Shown: positions 22,103-32,699 of the stretch, piece after piece | Layout: every line of letters begins with the position of its first letter | Position numbering within the stretch: position 1 is the stretch's first letter | Source: Spirochaetota bacterium | GTDB lineage: Bacteria; Spirochaetota; UBA4802; UB4802 | DNA: 33,217 nt | Direction of reading: 5' to 3' | Assembly: GCA_026414805.1 (NCBI GenBank) | Contig: JAOAIH010000031.1 | Coordinates: 1 to 33,217, forward strand | Made by a program: the position numbers and the translations under genes | The notes under the pieces: generated by a model | What the model was told of the DNA's origin: nothing | Seen by the model: the letters and a program-made list of their open reading frames with translations, nothing else | Database searches by the model: none

Positions 22103-23224
22103 TTACAGCTTGTGAATGGGGAATACCGTTTGTTTGATATAATCAACCACATCCCGTGCATATGTAAAACATTGTTCTTTAGTTAATCCTCCAATGTTGT
22201 AAGGGTTATCGTATAATGAACCGGCATCCATTTCCGGGCCATACATCATACCGCCAATAACTCCCATAAAATTATCCATAGGTTGTATGCCTGCAAATGT
22301 TGCCCAGGCAAGTGTCCATAATGCTGCGGTCTTATACAGATTATATCCACCTCCTCCAGTAGCAAGTATTTTTGGGGAAAACTGTTTTATGATCTGTAAA
22401 ACTTTTACATAGCCATTGCTGGTAAGGTTTAAATGTGCCAAAGGGTCATCCTTATGGCTATCGCCACCAACCTGAACACATACAATATCGGGTTTAAAGC
22501 TTTGTAATAACGGCGGAACAATTTCTTCAAATGCATACACAAAAATTTCGTCATCTGTATCCTTTAAAAGAGGGATATTGACGTTATACCCATATCCGGG
22601 CCCCTGGCCAATTTCATTTTCAAAACCGGTTCCGGGAAATAAAAACTGGCCACTTTCATGAATTGATATCGTAAGAACTCTGTTGTCATCATAAAATGCA
22701 CTTTGCACTCCATCACCATGATGGACATCAATGTCTATATATGCACATGTAAATCCTTTATTTATAAGGTAGTGAAGGGCAATGGCTATATCGTTGATGT
22801 AACAAAATCCTTCGGCGTGATCACGCATTGCATGGTGAAAACCGCCAATTGGGTTAAAAGCAAATAATGTGTCAGTATGGGCAAGTTTCTGAGCACCCAG
22901 GAATGTGCCGCCTGATGCCTGCAGTGAAAAACTATATACTCCTTTGAATATAGGATTATCATGAGTTCCAAGGCCGTATGTTAAAAGGTTTATGTCAAAT
23001 TGGCCATGCTCGCATGATTTTAGAGCCTGAATGTAATCGGGGGTGTGGAATAGATAAAGCAAATCTTCTTCAAGGAAAGGATGTTCAAGAATCTGGGTAT
23101 CGTCAAGCAATCCATACCGGTGTAATAGATCCATCATCTGTTTTGCGCGCATTGGTTTGAATGGATGAGTAGGGGAATATTCAACCTGCGCTAGTTCTTC
23201 TGAATAGAAAAAGATATTTTTCAT
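22103..23224 (-). CDS. AcuC-like histone-deacetylase-family protein
   Basis: Zinc amidohydrolase of the arginase/deacetylase fold, closest in layout to AcuC-type protein deacetylases. In 373 aa: start YSEELAQVEYSPTHPFKPMRAKQ; catalytic pair GGFHHA (His130, His131); GFCYINDIAIA; zinc ligands in DIDVHHGDG (Asp166, His168) and Asp255 in QVGGDSHKDDPLAHLNL; and transition-state Tyr294 in GGGGYN. The last ligand motif differs from the common GADAL form but keeps Asp. AcuC in Bacillus deacetylates acetyl-CoA synthetase; no acs or acuA gene is in the window. AAAGGA lies about ten bases before ATG 23224. It converges with the phosphoesterase gene, with only five bases between stops. Confidence 0.92.
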   Translation of the reverse strand: MKNIFFYSEELAQVEYSPTHPFKPMRAKQMMDLLHRYGLLDDTQILEHPFLEEDLLYLFHTPDYIQALKSCEHGQFDINLLTYGLGTHDNPIFKGVYSFSLQASGGTFLGAQKLAHTDTLFAFNPIGGFHHAMRDHAEGFCYINDIAIALHYLINKGFTCAYIDIDVHHGDGVQSAFYDDNRVLTISIHESGQFLFPGTGFENEIGQGPGYGYNVNIPLLKDTDDEIFVYAFEEIVPPLLQSFKPDIVCVQVGGDSHKDDPLAHLNLTSNGYVKVLQIIKQFSPKILATGGGGYNLYKTAALWTLAWATFAGIQPMDNFMGVIGGMMYGPEMDAGSLYDNPYNIGGLTKEQCFTYARDVVDYIKQTVFPIHKL

Positions 23225-23420: not shown

Positions 23421-23450
23421 TTGACATTCGTAATAAATTATTTTTTTAAA
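23421..23450 (+). promoter_or_regulatory. Possible promoter of the WD40-caspase gene
   Basis: A perfect TTGACA (23421-23426) lies 52 bases before the chosen start. The -10 is poor: TTTAAA (23445-23450) at 18-base spacing is the best match. It is the only consensus -35 word in the 253-base divergent gap after acuC. Confidence 0.35.
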
Positions 23451-23477
23451 GAGAAAAAATATTCAATGAGGTCAGCC

Positions 23478-26400
23478 ATGAAGAAAATGATAGTAACTAC
23501 ACTCTTGGTGCAATTATTTTTTCTTCACGCCTACTCTCAAACAATCGATAATCCTCAAGTAGTGGTACAACAGGGACATAGTGAATGGATAACATCCATG
23601 GCGGCTTCACCTGATGGCAGAATAATTGCATCCGCAAGCCTTGATGGAACAATAAAGCTTTGGGATGTTGCAAGCGGAAGATTGCTACGAACAATGGTTG
23701 GACATAGCGGTACTGTCGAAGCAATAGCATTTTCACCAGATGGGCGTACACTAGTGTCATGTGGTGCAGATAAAACAATCAAATGGTGGGAGGTTGAAAC
23801 TGGAAAGATTGTTATAAACATAGATACCGCAAGCTATATGAAAACTATAGCGTTTTCCCCTGACGGTAAAATGATTGCCACAGGCAGTGATGATGCAAAA
23901 GTAAAGATATGGGATTGGTCAACAGGAAAAGAAATAATCACATTTTTTGGGCACAGGGGGGACATTACATCAGTAGCTTTTTCTGTTGATAATAGATTTG
24001 TAGCTTCAGCAAGCAAAGATGGTACCATTAAATTGTGGGAAATTAGTACTGGAAAAATAGTACGAATATTTTCCGGACATACAGGTGATGTTACTTCTAT
24101 AGCGTTTTCGCCTAATGGCAGGATATTGGTATCAGGAAGCAGCGATACAACAGTGAAAGTATGGGATGTGATAACTCAACGGCTTATACATACTCTATCA
24201 GGCCATAAAGATTCTGTACTTTCAGTTTCATTTTCACAAGATGGTAAGTACATTGCTTCAGGAAGTGCTGATGAGTCCATTGCAATATGGGATTATGAAA
24301 CTGGCAGACTATCTGCAGTACTTAAAGGACACAGCAGTGTAGTGTCATCAGTTGTATTTTTACCACAGGGCAACTATCTGGTATCAGGTGCATGGGATAA
24401 CACAATAAAATTGTGGGATATAGTAAATAGCAGGGAAGTGAAAACTTTCTTGGCTACTGCGGATTGGATTTATTCGGTTGCTGTGTCACCCGATGGATTG
24501 TTTGTTGCGGCTGGTACCGATAGCAATGGCATCCAATTGTGGAATCTGTCAAAGGTTAATGATCTAAAAATACTTTCTGATCATAAAGGAAGCGTGTTTA
24601 CTGTTGCCATTTCACCTGATGGGAAAATGTTAGCTTCCGGCAGCTATGATAAAACGATAAAATTGTGGGAAATACCAGAAGGCAGGTTGCTTAAAACTTT
24701 CAAAGGACATACGGAAGCAGTCAATTGTATTAGATTTTCCCCTTGTGGTAATTATTTAGTATCAGGCAGCAGTGACGGGACAGTCAGGCTTTGGGATGTA
24801 AAGCGTGGTGTGTTAGTACATACGTTTAAAGGGCATGAAGGTGGGGTGGATGCAGTTGCATTCTCGCCTGATGGTACACTCATAGCATCTGGTGGATATG
24901 ATAAAACAATCAGGTTATGGCAGATAGCTACTAAAAAAGAATTATTAAAATTAACAGGTCATGAATTCAGAATACTATCATTGGCTTTTGCCCCCGATGG
25001 TAAATCATTGGTATCCGGCAGTAGCGATACTACTGTTCGATTGTGGAACGTGGCAAGTGGGCAGTGCATAAAAACGTTAAACCATAAAGGTATAGTGTAT
25101 TGTGTTGTATTTTCCAATGATGGCAAAACTATCATATCGGGGAGCTCTGATACCACAATAAAATTTTGGGATGTAAATACGTTTGCTGCAACAACATTAC
25201 TTACACATAATTACGTTATATCACTTGCAGTATCAAGGGATAATACGCATATAATTTCAGGTGGTAAGGATTGTAAGGTCAGAATTTGGGATGCTGGTAC
25301 TAAAAAAGAGATAGCTCAATGTATTGTAACTGCCAGCAGAGAATGGGCTGTTGTAACTCCTGATAACTATTATTTTTGCAATAAGGGCACGCTGAATTAC
25401 ATTCATTTTGTGAAAGGATTAAAAGTATTTTCGTTTGATCAGTTTGACCTGCAGTTCAATCGCCCCGACATTGTGCTGGAACGACTGGGAAAAGCATCTG
25501 GCAATTTGATTGTAGCATTCCGCACGGCATACGAAAAGCGACTGCGTAAAATGGGTTTTAATTTGTCTCAATTTGAAAAAATTTTTATATCCAATGCACC
25601 TCAGGTTGCAATTACAATGCCAGAAAGCGGCATTATTGAAACTGATAAACCATATTATGTAGTAAGGTTTAGAGCTCAGGATGATCTATATATGCTTGAG
25701 CGGATATTTGTTAAAGTTAATGGTGTTCCTCTTTATGGAGTCAAAGGAAAATTACTGGAAAACAAAAGTAAACTGGTACAACAAACATTGAGTATTCCAC
25801 TATCAGCCGGTAATAATGCAATTATGGTATCAGTTCTTAATGAAAAAGGTGTTGAATCACTTCCCCACACAATACATGTAAAGTATTCTCCACCAACCCC
25901 AATTAAGCCAAATTTATATATAGTAAGTATTGGAGTATCTAAATTTGTTCAGGCAGACTATAATCTGACGTATGCTGATAAGGATGCTAAGGATTTTGTA
26001 AAACTTTTTGAACAAAAAAAGGATAGGTATGGCACGATATACCAGTTTGTTGTTTTAAATGAAGATGCAACACGTGAAAGAATAGTACAGTTAAAGTCGG
26101 TATTGCTTAAAACTACTCCGGATGATCATGTAATTGTATTTGTTGCCTCTCACGGGCTTCTTGATGAAAATCTTGATTACTATATTGCTACTTATGATAT
26201 AGATTTTTCTAATCCTGGGGGTAAAGGATTACGGTATGACCAATTAGAAGAACTACTAGATGGAATACCATCTCGTAAAAAGGTGATGTTGATTGATGCT
26301 TGCCATTCAGGAGAATTAGACAGGGAAGATATGCAACTGATGAGTGCACAGGTTAAGACTGATAGCCATGTAAAATCACGTGGTTTTACCATAGTAAAGA

Positions 26401-26729
26401 ACAAAGTTAATTCCATAGGGTTGGCAAATAGTTTTGAACTTATGAAGGAATTGTTTGCTGATTTAAGGAGGCATAATGGAGCGATAGTGATATCATCTGC
26501 AGGAGGAGAAGAATATGCCTACGAATCAGCCCAATGGCGTAATGGTGTATTCACTTTCAGTGTTATAGAAGGGTTGGCAATTAAGAAAGCTGATAGCAAT
26601 AAAGATGGTGCTATTACAGTATCTGAACTTATGAACTATGTTTCAACAAGAACTCGACAACTTACTGGAGGAAAACAAAATCCTACAACCCGCCAGGAAA
26701 ACATAACAGTAGATTTTACACTATGGTAG
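23478..26729 (+). CDS. Secreted WD40-repeat protein with C-terminal caspase-like (peptidase C14) domain and EF-hand-type loop
   Basis: 1083-residue exported protein. A signal peptide (KKMIVTTLLVQLFFLHAYSQ) is followed by 14 consecutive WD40 repeats (about residues 33-616), enough for two seven-bladed propellers; most read GH...V.SVAFSPDG...SGS.D.T.KLWD. A linker of about 220 residues carries a beta-rich module (PQVAITMPESGIIETDKPYYVVRFRA). The caspase domain starts near residue 830 (LYIVSIGVSKF), with catalytic His892 in VASHG and Cys942 in IDACHSGEL. At residue 1039 begins DSNKDGAITVSE, a complete EF-hand-like calcium loop. The start at 23478 is preferred over in-frame ATG 23466 because AGGTC lies just upstream and the signal peptide begins there. 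The last seven bases overlap the next gene. Substrate and role are unknown. Confidence 0.9.
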   Translation: MKKMIVTTLLVQLFFLHAYSQTIDNPQVVVQQGHSEWITSMAASPDGRIIASASLDGTIKLWDVASGRLLRTMVGHSGTVEAIAFSPDGRTLVSCGADKTIKWWEVETGKIVINIDTASYMKTIAFSPDGKMIATGSDDAKVKIWDWSTGKEIITFFGHRGDITSVAFSVDNRFVASASKDGTIKLWEISTGKIVRIFSGHTGDVTSIAFSPNGRILVSGSSDTTVKVWDVITQRLIHTLSGHKDSVLSVSFSQDGKYIASGSADESIAIWDYETGRLSAVLKGHSSVVSSVVFLPQGNYLVSGAWDNTIKLWDIVNSREVKTFLATADWIYSVAVSPDGLFVAAGTDSNGIQLWNLSKVNDLKILSDHKGSVFTVAISPDGKMLASGSYDKTIKLWEIPEGRLLKTFKGHTEAVNCIRFSPCGNYLVSGSSDGTVRLWDVKRGVLVHTFKGHEGGVDAVAFSPDGTLIASGGYDKTIRLWQIATKKELLKLTGHEFRILSLAFAPDGKSLVSGSSDTTVRLWNVASGQCIKTLNHKGIVYCVVFSNDGKTIISGSSDTTIKFWDVNTFAATTLLTHNYVISLAVSRDNTHIISGGKDCKVRIWDAGTKKEIAQCIVTASREWAVVTPDNYYFCNKGTLNYIHFVKGLKVFSFDQFDLQFNRPDIVLERLGKASGNLIVAFRTAYEKRLRKMGFNLSQFEKIFISNAPQVAITMPESGIIETDKPYYVVRFRAQDDLYMLERIFVKVNGVPLYGVKGKLLENKSKLVQQTLSIPLSAGNNAIMVSVLNEKGVESLPHTIHVKYSPPTPIKPNLYIVSIGVSKFVQADYNLTYADKDAKDFVKLFEQKKDRYGTIYQFVVLNEDATRERIVQLKSVLLKTTPDDHVIVFVASHGLLDENLDYYIATYDIDFSNPGGKGLRYDQLEELLDGIPSRKKVMLIDACHSGELDREDMQLMSAQVKTDSHVKSRGFTIVKNKVNSIGLANSFELMKELFADLRRHNGAIVISSAGGEEYAYESAQWRNGVFTFSVIEGLAIKKADSNKDGAITVSELMNYVSTRTRQLTGGKQNPTTRQENITVDFTLW

Positions 26730-27905: not shown

Positions 27906-27934
27906 TTGACTTTTTTTAACAGGTGTTTTATTAT
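27906..27934 (+). promoter_or_regulatory. Promoter of lipase gene 1
   Basis: TTGACT (27906-27911), 17 bases, TATTAT (27929-27934). The -10 element is the left edge of the palindrome at 27927-27960, so a bound repressor would cover the -10 and the start site. The ATG is 35 bases further on, after GGGGGC. Confidence 0.7.
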
Positions 27935-27960
27935 ATACCATATAGACGGTATATAATAAA
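27927..27960. promoter_or_regulatory. Palindromic operator 1, TetR-family style
   Basis: 34-base inverted repeat with only two mismatched pairs around its centre (27943/27944). The inner 18 bases, ATACCATATAGACGGTAT (27935-27952), agree at 14 of 18 positions with the equivalent site before the second lipase. Inner arms ATACC and CGGTAT resemble operators of TetR-family repressors. No such regulator gene is in the window. Confidence 0.7.
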
Positions 27961-27969
27961 GGGGGCTTT

Positions 27970-29082
27970 ATGAAAAGGGGTTTGCTTATTATTGCAACGA
28001 TTATAGTTGCTATCGCTCTTATCCCTTATGGGGTTTTTGCTGCAGTACCACGCACCACATATCCAGTAGTATTTGCCCATGGTATGGCTGGATTTGATGA
28101 TATTTTGGGGTACGATTACTGGGGTAATGATTTTGGAGTATTTGTTGGTGATCCTTGTGATGAATTTTTAGAAGTAACCTGTAATGGAAATATCGATAGT
28201 GGCCAGAAATCCTTCGTGGCACAGGTGCAACCGTTCCACTCATCGGAATACCGCGGTACACAGCTTGCCAATCAGATTGAAAGCTATATGGCTACAAGTG
28301 GTGCACAATATGTTAATCTTGTAGGGCACTCACAGGGTGGACTTGACCTGCGTAAGGCTGCTAAGGTCCTGTATCAGCGAAAAGGGTATACTGTGGTAAA
28401 AGTTGCGCTTTCCATTTCTTCACCACATCGTGGTTCGCCGGTGGCAAAGTATATTCTGGATTTGGGACCGGGAGTAACAAGTGTTATAGCTGCACTTGCA
28501 ACTATTTATGGTAATGTTGTCTACAGGTCGGGCAATGATTGTTATGCAGCAGCCAAACAGATGGTATATAATGACTACAGCGCATCAGATGGCGTAACAA
28601 CTGGCATGAAGGTGTTCAATAACGCGTATCCTGTAAGCTCTACATACGCAGCACGCTATGTATCCATAATCACTGCACAGACAGGACTTGATGTAAATCC
28701 GGCACTATTTTTGTTGCGCAACGGCTTTTATAACATTGATGGTGATGGATATTGTACGGATGATTGTGACAATGATGGTGCAGCAGGTAAAGGAAATGGC
28801 ACGCGTACAGATCTTGATGATGACGGCCTTGTAGGTATAAATTCACAGCAAATGGGATACAGGTTAAAACTTAATGATGTATTTTTAGGACAGGATTATC
28901 TGACAACTGATACCGCACTGGGCTATGTTAGTAGCATAAATTATCCAAATAGTGCACAGATGACATCAACAAATGACATTGTAGTGCAGGACCATCTGGA
29001 TGTCATTGGTGTTGGTCCGGATATGTTTGATGAAATGGAGTTTTATGCAGCAGTGTTTGATTATATTGCCTACTATGATTGA
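27970..29082 (+). CDS. Secreted triacylglycerol lipase (family I, foldase-dependent type), paralogue 1
   Basis: Exported esterase releasing fatty acids from glycerides. After a signal peptide (GLLIIATIIVAIALIPYGVFA) comes TTYPVVFAHGMAGFDDILGYDYWG, the oxyanion-loop region of Pseudomonas/Burkholderia family I.1-I.2 lipases. The nucleophile elbow is GHSQGG with Ser121, followed by SISSPHRGSPVAKY. The catalytic Asp is in DDDGLVGINSQQMG (Asp285) and His in QDHLDVIG (His342). An Asp-rich stretch IDGDGYCTDDCDNDG (from about residue 257) looks like a calcium site with a cysteine pair; another pair is in GDPC and VTC near the N-terminus. 370 aa against about 285-320 in Pseudomonas/Burkholderia enzymes. 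Start ATG 27970 follows AAGGGGGC. A foldase gene lies 1.5 kb downstream. Confidence 0.93.
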   Translation: MKRGLLIIATIIVAIALIPYGVFAAVPRTTYPVVFAHGMAGFDDILGYDYWGNDFGVFVGDPCDEFLEVTCNGNIDSGQKSFVAQVQPFHSSEYRGTQLANQIESYMATSGAQYVNLVGHSQGGLDLRKAAKVLYQRKGYTVVKVALSISSPHRGSPVAKYILDLGPGVTSVIAALATIYGNVVYRSGNDCYAAAKQMVYNDYSASDGVTTGMKVFNNAYPVSSTYAARYVSIITAQTGLDVNPALFLLRNGFYNIDGDGYCTDDCDNDGAAGKGNGTRTDLDDDGLVGINSQQMGYRLKLNDVFLGQDYLTTDTALGYVSSINYPNSAQMTSTNDIVVQDHLDVIGVGPDMFDEMEFYAAVFDYIAYYD

Positions 29083-29102
29083 ATAGATTAATCACAGTGT
29101 AT

Positions 29103-29141
29103 ACAAAAGCCCTTTCTTTAAAAGAAAGGGCTTTTGTTTTT
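29103..29141 (+). terminator. Rho-independent terminator after lipase 1
   Basis: The stem CAAAAGCCCTTTCTT pairs with AAGAAAGGGCTTTTG around a small TTAA-centred loop (29104-29136) and is followed by TTTTT. It begins 22 bases after the stop. The flanking A and T runs make it effective in both directions, and it isolates lipase 1 from lipase 2, whose promoter starts 20 bases later. Confidence 0.93.
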
Positions 29142-29160
29142 CATGAAGATGTATTTTTTG

Positions 29161-29188
29161 TTGACAAAAATGAGATATGATATTTAAT
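29161..29188 (+). promoter_or_regulatory. Promoter of lipase gene 2
   Basis: TTGACA (29161-29166), 16 bases, TTTAAT (29183-29188). The -35 is perfect and the -10 has one mismatch. The palindrome at 29180-29211 covers the -10 and the expected start site, the same geometry as for lipase 1. Confidence 0.75.
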
Positions 29189-29211
29189 ACCGATTAGTCG
29201 GTATTAAATAT
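29180..29211. promoter_or_regulatory. Palindromic operator 2, TetR-family style
   Basis: 32-base inverted repeat with a single mismatched pair (29194/29197). The inner 18 bases, ATACCGATTAGTCGGTAT (29187-29204), are the cleaner version of operator 1. It ends 17 bases before the lipase 2 start codon. Confidence 0.8.
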
Positions 29212-29228
29212 ATTTAAAGGGGGTTGGC

Positions 29229-30341
29229 ATGTCATTAGTAAGAGTATTAAATAATATTTTCATTGTATCTGTGTTTTTATTGCTATACGTTCAGAGTTCT
29301 ATTGGCGCAGTTGATAAAACTACGTATCCGGTGGTATTTGCGCATGGCATGGGAGGATTTGATACTATTTTAGGGTACAATTACTGGGGAGATGACTTTG
29401 GTGTATTTGTTGGTGATCCCTGTGATGCATTCCTTGAAGTTACCTGCAATTCAAATATCAATACTGGGCAAAAATCCTTTGTAGCTCAAGTGCAGCCTCT
29501 GCACAATTCAGAATATCGTGGAGCAGAGTTAGCTGATCAAATTGAAGGATATATGGCAACCAGTGGTACAAAGTTTGTTAATTTAGTTGGCCATTCCCAG
29601 GGTGGGATGGATATTCGTAAAGCTGCAAAAGTTCTATACCAGCGAAAGGGATATCAGGTTGTGAAAGTTGCCCTAAGTATATCCTCACCACATAGGGGCT
29701 CGCCACTTGGCAAGTATGTTCTCCAGATGGGAACACTGGGAGATATATTAAAGTTTATCTTTAATCTCTATGGCGATATTGTGTATAAACCGGGCAATGA
29801 TACTGTTGAAGCATTGAAACAATTTGTATATGAAGACTTTGACCCCAATGATGGAAAAATCACAGGAGCAAAAATTTTTAATCAAAATAATCCGGTGTCA
29901 TCGTTGTACGCATCTCGATATGTATCGGTGATGACAGCTCAGAAAGGGTTGGATTTAAATCCGCTTCTTCTGATCGTTAAAGCGCTATACGATATTGATG
30001 GCAATGGCTATTGTGTGGATGATTGTGATAATGATGGAGTGGCAGGCTGTGGCAACGGAATAAAAGATGACCTGGATGATGATGGCATGGTGGGAATCAA
30101 TGCGCAACAGATGGGATATCGCTTACGATATAATGAAGTTTTTCTGGGACAGGATTATCTTACTACTGACACATCATTAGGATATGTTGGCAACATCAAC
30201 TATCCCAATGCAACGCAGATGATTTCACAAGCAGATCTGATACAACAAGATCATGTGGATGTTATAGGAATTGGCCCGGATATGTTTGATGAAATGGAGT
30301 TTTATGCAGCAGTATTTGATTATATTGCATATTATGATTAA
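29229..30341 (+). CDS. Secreted triacylglycerol lipase (family I, foldase-dependent type), paralogue 2
   Basis: Close paralogue of the preceding lipase, same length and architecture, so a tandem duplication. The signal peptide NNIFIVSVFLLLYVQSSIGA differs, but the mature part aligns almost without gaps: TTYPVVFAHGMGGFDTILGYNYWG, nucleophile Ser123 in GHSQGG, SISSPHRGSPLGKY, Asp285 in DDDGMVGINAQQMG and His342 in QDHVDVIG. The Asp-rich loop IDGNGYCVDDCDNDG is kept, with an extra cysteine in VAGCGNG. The most divergent part is the stretch after GSPLGKY (residues about 165-215), which in this lipase type forms the lid region, suggesting different chain-length or interface preference. Start ATG 29229 follows AAAGGGGG. 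A terminator follows the gene. Confidence 0.93.
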   Translation: MSLVRVLNNIFIVSVFLLLYVQSSIGAVDKTTYPVVFAHGMGGFDTILGYNYWGDDFGVFVGDPCDAFLEVTCNSNINTGQKSFVAQVQPLHNSEYRGAELADQIEGYMATSGTKFVNLVGHSQGGMDIRKAAKVLYQRKGYQVVKVALSISSPHRGSPLGKYVLQMGTLGDILKFIFNLYGDIVYKPGNDTVEALKQFVYEDFDPNDGKITGAKIFNQNNPVSSLYASRYVSVMTAQKGLDLNPLLLIVKALYDIDGNGYCVDDCDNDGVAGCGNGIKDDLDDDGMVGINAQQMGYRLRYNEVFLGQDYLTTDTSLGYVGNINYPNATQMISQADLIQQDHVDVIGIGPDMFDEMEFYAAVFDYIAYYD

Positions 30342-30414
30342 TGATGGATAACTATTTACATTGAATATGCTTTAAAATATAATACATATTCTTATAAATA
30401 TGAGCTTACTTTAT

Positions 30415-30449
30415 GGTCGTTGGGATTTTTTTACTCAACGGCCTTTTTT
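30415..30449 (+). terminator. Rho-independent terminator after lipase 2
   Basis: GGTCGTTG (30415-30422) pairs with CAACGGCC (30436-30443) including one G-T pair, with a 13-base loop, followed by TTTTTT. It lies about 75 bases after the stop. A second weaker stem CCCTTT/AAAGGG with a T-run follows at 30506-30536. Most of the 302-base gap before the foldase is otherwise featureless. Confidence 0.8.
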
Positions 30450-30583
30450 ATAAACAGTACTAATCTATATATATTTTAACAATATTCATTATTAGTATAT
30501 TGTTTCCCTTTTTCTAATTGGCTCAAAGGGTTTTTTATTTTTTGATCATAAAAAATGTCCTTGAAAAAAATCACTGTTGGCAA

Positions 30584-30623
30584 GATGATGTGGGCAGTAG
30601 GGTCAGAGCTCTAAAGCATCATC
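30584..30623 (+). promoter_or_regulatory. Leader hairpin just before the foldase gene
   Basis: GATGATG (30584-30590) and CATCATC (30617-30623) are exact inverted repeats separated by 26 bases, followed by TATTTTTATA and then the ribosome site AGGAG. The position in the leader suggests control of foldase expression, but the stem is only seven pairs and may be chance. Confidence 0.3.
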
Positions 30624-30643
30624 TATTTTTATAGGAGTAGCAC

Positions 30644-31678
30644 ATGAAAAAAAAATACTACTATGCTTTGATAGGTTTTATTGCGTTTATAGCAGTATAT
30701 CTTCTAATCTTCCATAAGGGTGATAATGTCCAATCGCGTATTGATTATATAAAGAATGGTGGCGTAGTACCACCGGTGAACATGTTGTTACAAGCTTTTC
30801 AAGCTGATGAAGAATTACGTGCCCGCCTTCAGGCTGATTTTGATATGCAGGATGTTGTTCAGTATTTCAGAGATAAATATGGCAAAACTATCCACCATAA
30901 ACATACACAGGTTATGCTGGTTGAAAAGCTTATGAGCTATTTAGTCAAAATGTATCCTGAGGATTGGGTTATATATTTATATGCAATGCTGCGTGAAATA
31001 TTCCCGGGAATGGAAAATGAAATATTTGATACATTTGAAAAATTATATAAGTATAATAAATGGTTGGAAGAAAACAAGAATGGCCTTGCCCAATTAAATT
31101 CTAAAGAAAAACGTGATGCGTTGTGGAAAAAACGGTATGAGATATTTGGTGAAGATGCAGAACAGGTGTGGGAAGCAGAAAAACGCAATGAGCCTATTTA
31201 TAATGCACTGGACACAATTAGTACAGGCAATATGAGTTTTGATGAAAAACTATCGCTTTATACTCAAAGTATACAGGAAGCATACAAAAACAATAGTAAC
31301 GATTTTGTTGCTCGCAAGCAGCAGGAATTGATGAATTCGTTTCTTGATATTGATAGTGTCCAGAAAGATCTTGCTGAAATGAGCCCGCAGAAGCGCAAGG
31401 AAAGTTTAAAAGAGTTACGAAAGGCTATGGGCCTTGACAATGCTGCATTACAGCGATGGGAAGAACTTGACCAGATACGTGACCAGCGCTGGGATGCAGG
31501 TATGCAGTACATGCAGCAGCGATCTGAACTTGAAAAAAAATATAAGGGAGCAGAGCTTGAAAAGCAACTTGACAGCTTGCGAATAAAATATTTTGGCAAT
31601 GAAGCGGAAACAATCAAAGCGGAAGAACAAAGTGGCTACTACAGGTTTACACAACAGCGCAAGTATGGGTTGGAATAA
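30644..31678 (+). CDS. lifO: Lipase-specific foldase (lipase chaperone, Lif/LifO family)
   Basis: Membrane-anchored steric chaperone that folds family I lipases in the periplasm. One N-terminal helix (YYYALIGFIAFIAVYLLIF, about 5-23) leaves the rest outside. The body is almost entirely helical, as in the Burkholderia foldase that wraps its lipase. KEKRDALWKKRYEIFGEDAEQVWEAE, the middle helices, MSPQKRKESLKELRKAMGLDNAALQRWEELDQIRDQRWDAGMQYM and LEKQLDSLRIKYFGNEAETIKAEE match the order and FG-E-A pattern of the family's extended helical domain. 344 aa is the usual size. The family hallmark RxxFDYxLSAxGE of the first mini-domain is not recognisable; ADFDMQDVVQYFRDKYGK is the nearest stretch. ATG 30644 follows AGGAG. 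It sits after its two presumed clients and overlaps the next gene. Confidence 0.82.
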   Translation: MKKKYYYALIGFIAFIAVYLLIFHKGDNVQSRIDYIKNGGVVPPVNMLLQAFQADEELRARLQADFDMQDVVQYFRDKYGKTIHHKHTQVMLVEKLMSYLVKMYPEDWVIYLYAMLREIFPGMENEIFDTFEKLYKYNKWLEENKNGLAQLNSKEKRDALWKKRYEIFGEDAEQVWEAEKRNEPIYNALDTISTGNMSFDEKLSLYTQSIQEAYKNNSNDFVARKQQELMNSFLDIDSVQKDLAEMSPQKRKESLKELRKAMGLDNAALQRWEELDQIRDQRWDAGMQYMQQRSELEKKYKGAELEKQLDSLRIKYFGNEAETIKAEEQSGYYRFTQQRKYGLE

Positions 31679-32699
31679 AATATTCATTATACCTTTCAGT
31701 GCTCTGTGCATTTGCCTTTCAGTTCAGTGTAACAGCAAAAAGGTTGTGGAATATGGTGTGTTTGCACCTTCACGACTTGCGTATGTGAAGGGTCAGGATG
31801 GCTGTACGCCAATTGACTTTGACAAGCAGTATACTATGTGGACATTTGGTGATACCATTACTGATGACGGAATGATTTCCAACAGCCTTGCATTCACACA
31901 AAAAGTTACTACACACAATGTGGCACAATTGCAATTTTCCTATTACCAGGAAAGAGGAAAGATTGTGCAATTTATAAAAAATGAAGCAGGTGAGGATCCG
32001 GCCAGGGACAGATTGTGGGCATTTGATGGCATTCGTATAGGCGATACCGTGTATGTGTACTTTGCTCATGTATATATACACGACGCTGCTGCACCATTGT
32101 CATTCACAATGAAGGAAAGTTCACTTGCGTATTGGAAGGTGCCATTCAAATGGCAGATTGGCAACAAAATACAATTTATCCGCAAAAAAAACATGTTTAC
32201 AGGCAATGTACCTGCATTTGGTGCTTCAGTACTTGAAAGTGGCAACTTTGTATATGTTGTTGGGCACATCAGTGAAAAAAACAAAAGCGGGATTGTGATT
32301 GCAAGGGTTGACAAAAATAGTATCATAGATCAAAGTCAATATGAATTTTTACAGGGCGATAGTAACTGGAACAATAGACTTGATTCTGCAATTAGATTAT
32401 ATGGTGATGTCGCTGGCGAATGTTCTCTGTCGTATGACGATGGGTTACAGTCATTCTGTATGGTGTATTGCCAGCTTTTCACTGGCAATATAATAGTGTG
32501 CATGTCAAAAACAGTGGAAGGATTGCCCACTGCACAAAAGTACACAGTATATATGCCACCCCGATTACAGGGAAGTAGCATGATGTATTATTCAGCAAAG
32601 GCGATAGCTCATGATAGTAATCAATGGTATATTGTATATATGAATCCAATGGACTATCAGCCATATCTAATTAAGGTTGATGTTGAAAAATATTTTTAA
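31665..32699 (+). CDS. Predicted lipoprotein, DUF4185-like beta-propeller
   Basis: About 344 residues. The N-terminus GWNKIFIIPFSALCICLSVQCNSKK looks like a lipoprotein signal with Cys21 as lipidation site; SVQC is a loose lipobox. The remainder is beta-rich with the repeat style of five-bladed propellers of the DUF4185/glycosidase-like group: VKGQDGCTPIDFDKQYTMWTFGDTITDDG, DRLWAFDGIRIGDTVYVYFAHVY, GASVLESGNFVYVVGHISEKNKSGIVIARVD, ECSLSYDDGLQSFCMVYCQLF and AKAIAHDSNQWYIVYMNP. The FGDT and DG elements resemble the first blade of DUF4185 proteins. The start at 31665 overlaps the foldase end by 14 bases, so it is co-translated. An ATG at 31593 in frame would lie far inside the foldase gene. Its role with the lipases is unknown. 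Confidence 0.75.
   Translation: MGWNKIFIIPFSALCICLSVQCNSKKVVEYGVFAPSRLAYVKGQDGCTPIDFDKQYTMWTFGDTITDDGMISNSLAFTQKVTTHNVAQLQFSYYQERGKIVQFIKNEAGEDPARDRLWAFDGIRIGDTVYVYFAHVYIHDAAAPLSFTMKESSLAYWKVPFKWQIGNKIQFIRKKNMFTGNVPAFGASVLESGNFVYVVGHISEKNKSGIVIARVDKNSIIDQSQYEFLQGDSNWNNRLDSAIRLYGDVAGECSLSYDDGLQSFCMVYCQLFTGNIIVCMSKTVEGLPTAQKYTVYMPPRLQGSSMMYYSAKAIAHDSNQWYIVYMNPMDYQPYLIKVDVEKYF
32601..32611 (+). repeat. Iterated motif GCGATAGCTCA, exact copy
   Basis: Exact copy (GGCGATAGCTCAT) within the DUF4185-like gene, read as Ala-Ile-Ala-His, the same frame and codons as the copy in the ABC ATPase gene although the proteins are unrelated. Confidence 0.7.

Follow-up and report, generated by a model that had tools for sequence, protein, structure and literature searches.

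Two tandem family I lipases of a spirochaete are probably served by one distant relative of the proteobacterial lipase foldases

Lipase-specific foldases (Lif) are textbook steric chaperones that are known from Proteobacteria and for a single family of clients. A block of three genes in a Spirochaetota bacterium (GTDB lineage UBA4802; assembly GCA_026414805.1) raises the question of whether such a foldase is at work in another phylum, and whether a single copy can serve two lipases at once. The block lies on contig JAOAIH010000031.1, of which the whole stretch of 33,217 nucleotides was analysed (the window hereafter), and consists of lip1, lip2 and a foldase gene, arranged in this order and in tandem on the plus strand (Table 1). 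A first-pass annotation of this DNA had proposed two lipases followed by one foldase in a host that might not be a proteobacterium, and both points held: all three open reading frames are present and complete, and the host belongs to Spirochaetota.

I consider it likely that the block is a lipase secretion module in which one membrane-anchored foldase serves both lipases ahead of export by a type II secretion system (T2SS). Lip1 and Lip2 would reach the periplasm by means of their signal peptides, while the N-terminal helix of the 344-aa protein would keep it attached to the inner membrane, its helical arms wrapping each folding lipase in the manner of a proteobacterial Lif; the active enzyme would then be released from the foldase and leave through the T2SS. 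The single foldase would be common to both enzymes, and both lipase genes would be under a shared TetR-type operator, an element not seen ahead of the foldase gene. The helper protein is thus probably a distant cousin of the proteobacterial lipase foldases that folds both neighbouring lipases.

Is the 344-aa protein a Lif homologue? Homologues of it were found in 11 of 59 related genomes and subsequently, using an alignment of those homologues, in 43 of 392 Spirochaetota genomes. They split into type A (27 places including the window) and type B; the counts are lower bounds, and type B foldases were missed, for example, at G003:C44, G013:C59 and G095:C1:181562 (G, C and L numbers are handles for genomes, contigs and loci). 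The window protein was matched at 1.1e-21 by a profile of 24 type B homologues, 22 of which were recovered by a profile built from 12 proteobacterial Lifs. Profile-profile alignment with hhalign gave probabilities of 99.8% for type A against type B, 99.1% for type B against the proteobacterial Lifs and 95.9% for type A against the twelve proteobacterial Lifs (81.2% when five controls were used), while decoys, made up of two reversed and six column-shuffled alignments, reached 2.3% at most. All eight type B proteins scanned also matched the Pfam family of Lifs, PF03280 (E 2.4e-14 to 4e-26); these sequences had first been recruited via the type A search, and the Pfam match is independent support. 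Neither the window foldase nor a type B foldase found a match in a plasmid collection, and the proteobacterial controls were therefore collected via the lipase. On the strength of the profile comparisons, the window protein is judged to share a common ancestor with the proteobacterial Lifs, and is classed as a divergent Lif homologue in a clade of its own that lies outside PF03280 by Pfam's rule.

Predicted structure agreed with this assignment. The AlphaFold model of the window foldase (pLDDT 88.7) was aligned with 992 PDB chains, and the top two entries, 2es4_E (Z 9.3) and 9g8u_B (Z 9.2), are the Lifs of two solved Lif-lipase complexes, from B. glumae and A. baumannii, followed by the next entry at 5.3; as modelled, the protein has the Lif fold. 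A hydropathy window detected an N-terminal membrane anchor in 26 of 27 type A proteins (the window's included), in 24/24 type B proteins and in 11 of the 12 proteobacterial rows. The likeness to Lif (LipB/LipH/LimK, PF03280) accordingly covers the N-terminal anchor, the all-helical periplasmic part, a gene position beside a family I lipase, the predicted fold and homology by profile. Unlike the Lifs known so far, type A forms a spirochaete-only clade among the rows examined.

For the neighbouring enzymes the evidence was more direct. In a search of PDB sequences, lip1 matched the family I lipases 9g8u_A (E=4.7e-20) and 1ex9_A (E=4e-19), and 1ex9 was also the best Foldseek match (4.2e-15) of the Lip1 AlphaFold model, which had a mean pLDDT of 72.7. 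The 17 best Foldseek matches are all what I take to be family I type lipases, one of which is an entry titled cholesterol esterase. The residues assigned to the catalytic triad (Table 1) are invariant across 25 aligned spirochaete lipases, and the GHSQGG motif, the Asp in [DN]DG[LM]V and the DHxD motif occur in 24/24 type A lipases. Lip1 and Lip2 are accordingly assigned to the family I lipases by fold and by a catalytic triad that was placed by alignment, and share the GHSQGG nucleophile motif, the triad Asp and His and the alpha/beta hydrolase fold with family I.1/I.2 enzymes (P. aeruginosa LipA, 1ex9; Burkholderia). Unlike the latter, the type A lipase consensus carries an Asp-rich, Cys-containing insert before the catalytic Asp; a narrow pattern written for it fitted 5/24 type A and 0/14 type B lipases. 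Type A lipases are also longer than those of type B (350-382 versus 295-321 aa), and an hhalign comparison of the two types extended to the catalytic Asp.

Given that the host's own draft genome (95.6% complete, 186 contigs) contained two family I lipase matches and one foldase match, sharing of the foldase is implied, and the same combination of two type A lipases and one foldase was found in Leptonema illini (G164). The claim that one foldase has to serve both enzymes is therefore upheld by the copy numbers; that this should be exceptional is weakened by P. aeruginosa, for which LipB is listed with both LipA and the distant LipC in Table 1 of PMC4713064.

The two lipases do not look like recent copies of each other. 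They are 67.9% identical, and a lip2 clade (window, G001, G004 and G002; support 100/100) and a lip1 clade (window, G001, G003 and G004; 94/89) each unite several genomes of the same genus, which suggests that the duplication is older than the split of that genus. Either copy can be missing: G002 has a single lipase match, of the lip2 type, while in G003 lip2 is absent beside the foldase, where the gap after lip1 showed no remnant of it, and a second, more distant lipase lies elsewhere in that genome beside a type B foldase. Such divergence and dispensability would also fit if the foldase served only one of the two lipases, with the other folding alone or having turned foldase-independent after the duplication. 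However, the foldase persists both in G003, where lip1 is the only lipase at the locus, and in G002, where lip2 is the only one, which suggests that either can be a client, and together with the LipB precedent this makes an arrangement with a single client rather unlikely.

Export by a T2SS was compatible with the gene content of the host, which includes GspD (455.7 bits, with neighbours in frame) and GspE (713.6 bits), both above the curated cut-offs; one of the two GspD pieces had a stop codon flagged inside the matched stretch. Across the phylum, a GspD match at 1e-20 or better, a threshold that admits partial and other secretins, was present in 38/43 foldase-positive and 95/349 foldase-negative genomes, corresponding to an odds ratio of 20 when kinship is ignored.

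Several results weigh against the module as described. Five of the 43 foldase-positive genomes had no GspD match, namely G002, which is of the same genus, G040, G042, G211 and G213. A second foldase could escape notice in a draft of this completeness and fragmentation. The hhalign match between type A lipases and the 12 proteobacterial lipases, at 99.9%, covered only the N-terminal half (191 columns). The other contrary results concern the foldase itself: the 344-aa protein had no PF03280 match at E<=0.01 in a Pfam search, searches of NCBIfam and of PDB sequences returned no Lif, single-sequence BLAST against five proteobacterial Lifs gave only pieces at chance level, and the profile of 12 proteobacterial Lifs recovered only 3 of the 27 type A proteins, the window protein not among them. 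The Foldseek match of the model to Lif was weak by E (0.12, with a probability of 0.99), and two unrelated cullin chains ranked ahead of it by E (0.041 and 0.11, with probabilities of 0.60 and 0.33); Z values of the order seen for Lif can, moreover, be reached by chance in helical bundles. Finally, the MD1 motif RxxFDY(F/C)L(S/T)A, which is called conserved in all foldase families in PMC7046727 and is also given in PMC13381987, was found in none of the 51 spirochaete foldases searched. As the literal motif was present in only 3 of the 12 proteobacterial control Lifs, either MD1 is less universal than claimed or its contacts differ in spirochaetes.

The PF03280 result deserves closer inspection, as failure of the 344-aa protein to match this profile had been named beforehand as a ground for giving up the foldase assignment. 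Taken literally, the window protein fails: a search of its own genome was empty, but so were 14 control genomes in that run, which by itself is thus no proof of absence; in a search of 44 spirochaete genomes it again had no match, and there the model did score elsewhere in the phylum. Yet 10 of the 27 type A places, including those of Leptonema illini and Turneriella parva, exceeded the gathering cut-off of 25.7 bits in the genome search, and the test was thus too strict. By hmmscan, PF03280 was passed by 8 of 16 type A relatives, of which ten, holding all eight passes, had been picked after the genome search had mostly shown them passing; one type A member (L057, G191:C49) scored 28.4 bits in the genome search and gave no PF03280 match by hmmscan. 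The missing PF03280 and PDB sequence matches, and the unrelated chains heading the Foldseek ranking by E, would suit an unrelated helical membrane protein that adjoins the lipases by chance. This is scarcely credible in view of the structural Z scores to the Lifs, the profile-profile probabilities, the type A relatives that pass PF03280, and a pairing with lipases that is conserved over several families. What remains is a Lif homologue that differs from the known proteins by its score below the Pfam cut-off, the lack of MD1, and chance-level single-sequence similarity to the five proteobacterial Lifs.

Table 1. Positions of the genes and of the putative transcription signals of the block within the window.
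Feature	Position	Strand	Remarks
Probable lip1 promoter, TTGACT-17-TATTAT	27906..27934	+	A TTGAC(A/T) -35 is also present before lip1 in G003 and G004
Palindromic operator-like site, ATACC-N7-CGGTAT	27935..27952	+	Directly after the lip1 -10
lip1	27970..29082	+	Complete open reading frame, 370 aa; secreted family I lipase; triad S121, D285, H342 inferred from alignment
Intrinsic terminator after lip1	29103..29137	+	16-bp stem, fold z -8.1
TTGACA -35 of probable lip2 promoter	29161..29166	+	Sequence recurs upstream of lip2 in G001, G002 and G004
Operator-like palindrome, ATACC-N7-CGGTAT, upstream of lip2	29187..29204	+	In the lip2 promoter region
lip2	29229..30341	+	Complete open reading frame, 370 aa; secreted family I lipase; lip1 paralogue
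Probable terminator after lip2	about 30415..30443	+	Hairpin of -14.4 kcal/mol, fold z -3.5
foldase	30644..31678	+	Complete open reading frame, 344 aa; type A, Lif-like; N-terminal membrane helix, then an all-helical periplasmic part

Each lipase had been credited with its own promoter and terminator, and the foldase with separate transcription. The folding scores back the terminator of lip1 and make one after lip2 probable; the hairpin after lip2 was missed by a terminator scan with a loop limit of 8 and was found by folding. The promoters are probable, given -35 elements that recur in relatives, while promoter-like sites were no more numerous in this region than chance would give (16, compared with 20.2 in shuffles). 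For the same reason a promoter of the foldase's own found no support; nevertheless, with the hairpin after lip2 and a gap of 302 bases, it is plausible that the foldase is transcribed separately from lip2.

The palindrome that follows the lip1 promoter and recurs before lip2 was enriched. Allowing up to one mismatch on both strands, the window contained 5 matches against 0.17 in shuffles. In the whole draft genome, 10 matches over both strands fell at 8 distinct places, against 2 matches for a reversed control pattern. It was present without mismatch in 6 of the 7 readable lipase upstream regions of the genus (160 bases each), the one without it being that of G003 lip1, and the region upstream of G001 lip1 being cut by a contig end. 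No copy was found upstream of the lipase of G013, which is of another genus, or in any of the five regions that were read ahead of a foldase gene. Co-regulation of the two lipase genes via a shared operator is hence probable, and a TetR-type repressor is predicted to bind it. Six further places were found in the genome (L117-L122, on contigs C3, C45, C51, C66, C101 and C115 of G000). Eight proteins near five of these were scanned against Pfam at 1e-5; seven gave no match and the eighth proved to be a PAS/HD protein, so that no regulon function could be named.

Where did the block come from? An ancient wider distribution and a transfer had both been put forward, and the trees and codon comparison proposed to separate them were carried out. 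In the foldase tree, the 27 type A rows formed a single clade (100/99), as did the 12 proteobacterial rows (100/99), while type B was split into one part beside the proteobacterial rows and one beside type A. The lipase tree concurred in setting type A (24 rows, 100/100) apart from the proteobacterial rows (97/98). Both trees were unrooted with several long branches, and all proteobacterial rows came from one plasmid collection. Type A foldases occur under seven of the phylum's family codes (f1, f2, f5, f7, f11, f22 and f34), and this spread, apart from the proteobacterial pairs, fits an old distribution better than a recent transfer. Codon use, compared as GC content at third codon positions (GC3), pointed the same way, with values of 0.323, 0.315 and 0.354 for lip1, lip2 and the foldase gene falling within the range of 0.276-0.416 of 12 other genes in the window. 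PF03280 is described as a proteobacterial family, as would suit a recent acquisition of the block from a proteobacterium, but a search of 44 spirochaete genomes, most of which had been chosen as foldase-positive, found proteins above its cut-off in 35; considering also the trees and codon use, on which it was rejected, such an acquisition is very improbable. A very old transfer in either direction is possible, as the trees are unrooted and the proteobacterial sample is narrow.

Gene neighbourhoods were then used to ask what the foldases serve. Fifty-three foldase places were listed, and 50 of the 52 places other than the window entered the locus counts (G205:C134 was added later and G029:C48 was left out). 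In 33 of these loci a family I lipase was encoded on the same strand up to 1,500 bases ahead of the foldase, in 4 a GDSL/SGNH hydrolase, and in 13 neither. At the level of genomes, 41/43 foldase-positive genomes had a family I lipase match (at 1e-6), and the only two without one, G015 and G043, are two of the four GDSL-linked genomes. Among the 13 loci with neither neighbour, 11 had a neighbouring protein scanned (L022 included; L079 and L092 had none), and in three the gene immediately before the foldase encodes a protein that matches PI-PLC-X and C-type lectin, leaving 10 without a recognised client.

The GDSL-linked proteins are hydrolases of ~239 aa. An alignment of them gave 5 matches at 1e-10 in the 392 genomes; the four with E below 1e-139 all lie directly upstream of foldases, with gaps of 76-163 bases, and the fifth is a homologue at G203:C9 (E 4.7e-30). 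Their Pfam GDSL matches were weak (L019 25.3 and L023 32.2 bits, with a cut-off of 32.9) and no match to PDB sequences was found at 0.01; the SGNH/GDSL assignment is based on these weak matches together with conserved blocks that I take to be the GDS, GGGND and DGIHP blocks of the family. Since their signal sequence ends in VIGC or a similar lipobox-like stretch, they may be lipoproteins. For the second group, PI-PLC-X scores were 22.9, 26 and 24.7 bits against a cut-off of 23.1, so that two of the three pass. An alignment of these proteins found 6 matches at 1e-20 in the 392 genomes, and a foldase homologue was located directly downstream in five (gaps of 58, 50, 143, 29 and 163 bases), with no foldase match in the locus of the sixth, in G021.

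The four foldases linked to GDSL genes group together in the foldase tree as one clade within type A, and the three PI-PLC-linked ones that the tree included do so within type B, which indicates at least two separate exchanges of clients. It is somewhat favoured that the Lif family of Spirochaetota comprises general dedicated chaperones in which family I lipases have been replaced as clients at least twice, by an SGNH/GDSL hydrolase in type A (in the order of the window) and by a PI-PLC-like C-type-lectin protein in type B (in the genus of Turneriella and one genome of another family). If true, steric folding by the Lif scaffold would be independent of the alpha/beta-hydrolase fold, and more than one client fold may be served by "lipase-specific" foldases. 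A T2SS chaperone whose client is not a lipase is known from the Acinetobacter pair CpaA-CpaB, a T2SS protease and its dedicated membrane chaperone (PMC4713064); CpaB is described there by other domain matches, and the title of its structure paper speaks of a novel interaction mode.

Client exchange elsewhere in the family also invites a different view of the window, in which the foldase, though homologous to Lif, acts on a different client or in a different role, and the lipases fold unaided, as the family I lipases of Proteus do. A candidate client is the adjoining DUF4185 protein, whose gene follows the foldase directly in all five genomes of the genus (the window's included), and the absence of MD1 would also be in keeping with a changed client. 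On the other hand, no DUF4185 protein was found in six other type A loci searched (L018-L023), and 20 of 26 type A loci have a family I lipase ahead of the foldase, so that I regard this as improbable and the two lipases as the better clients. In the window, the DUF4185 gene occupies 31665-32699, if the ATG at 31665 is its start, and overlaps the end of the foldase gene by 14 bases.

These findings broaden the range of Lif to a spirochaete clade that is partly missed by Pfam, and raise the question of why a foldase can do without the MD1 motif, supposed to be universal. With the GDSL and PI-PLC gene pairs, it can be tested which features of a client a steric chaperone recognises, and lipase/foldase pairs are available in the cultured species Leptonema illini and Turneriella parva; T. 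parva is reported to produce lipase and both are reported to use long-chain fatty acids. Among the open-access papers listed, none was found on spirochaete lipase foldases or on a pairing of foldases with GDSL genes; subscription papers were mostly outside this coverage.

Some loci departed from the common layouts. G201 (78% complete) has three type A lipases, on C2, C18 and C56, and the sole foldase found in it is of type B. A mirror image of the window's layout was seen at 2732-5866 of L128 (G023:C8), where a single family I lipase precedes a tandem pair of type B foldases, the second of which begins where the first ends. In Turneriella parva (G095), the lipase beside a type B foldase (L130, 3668-4290) consists of two short open reading frames in different frames and looks broken in the record. 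Large AraC-type regulators stand beside several foldase loci, downstream of type B foldases (L083 and L086) and upstream of the GDSL gene (L019 and L021). Ahead of the block, the window carries a gene for a histone-deacetylase-family protein on the minus strand (22103-23224; E 1.2e-84) and one for a large WD40-repeat protein (23421-26729), in the C-terminal part of which a caspase-like His/Cys signature (ASHG ... DACHSGE) was recognised by eye.

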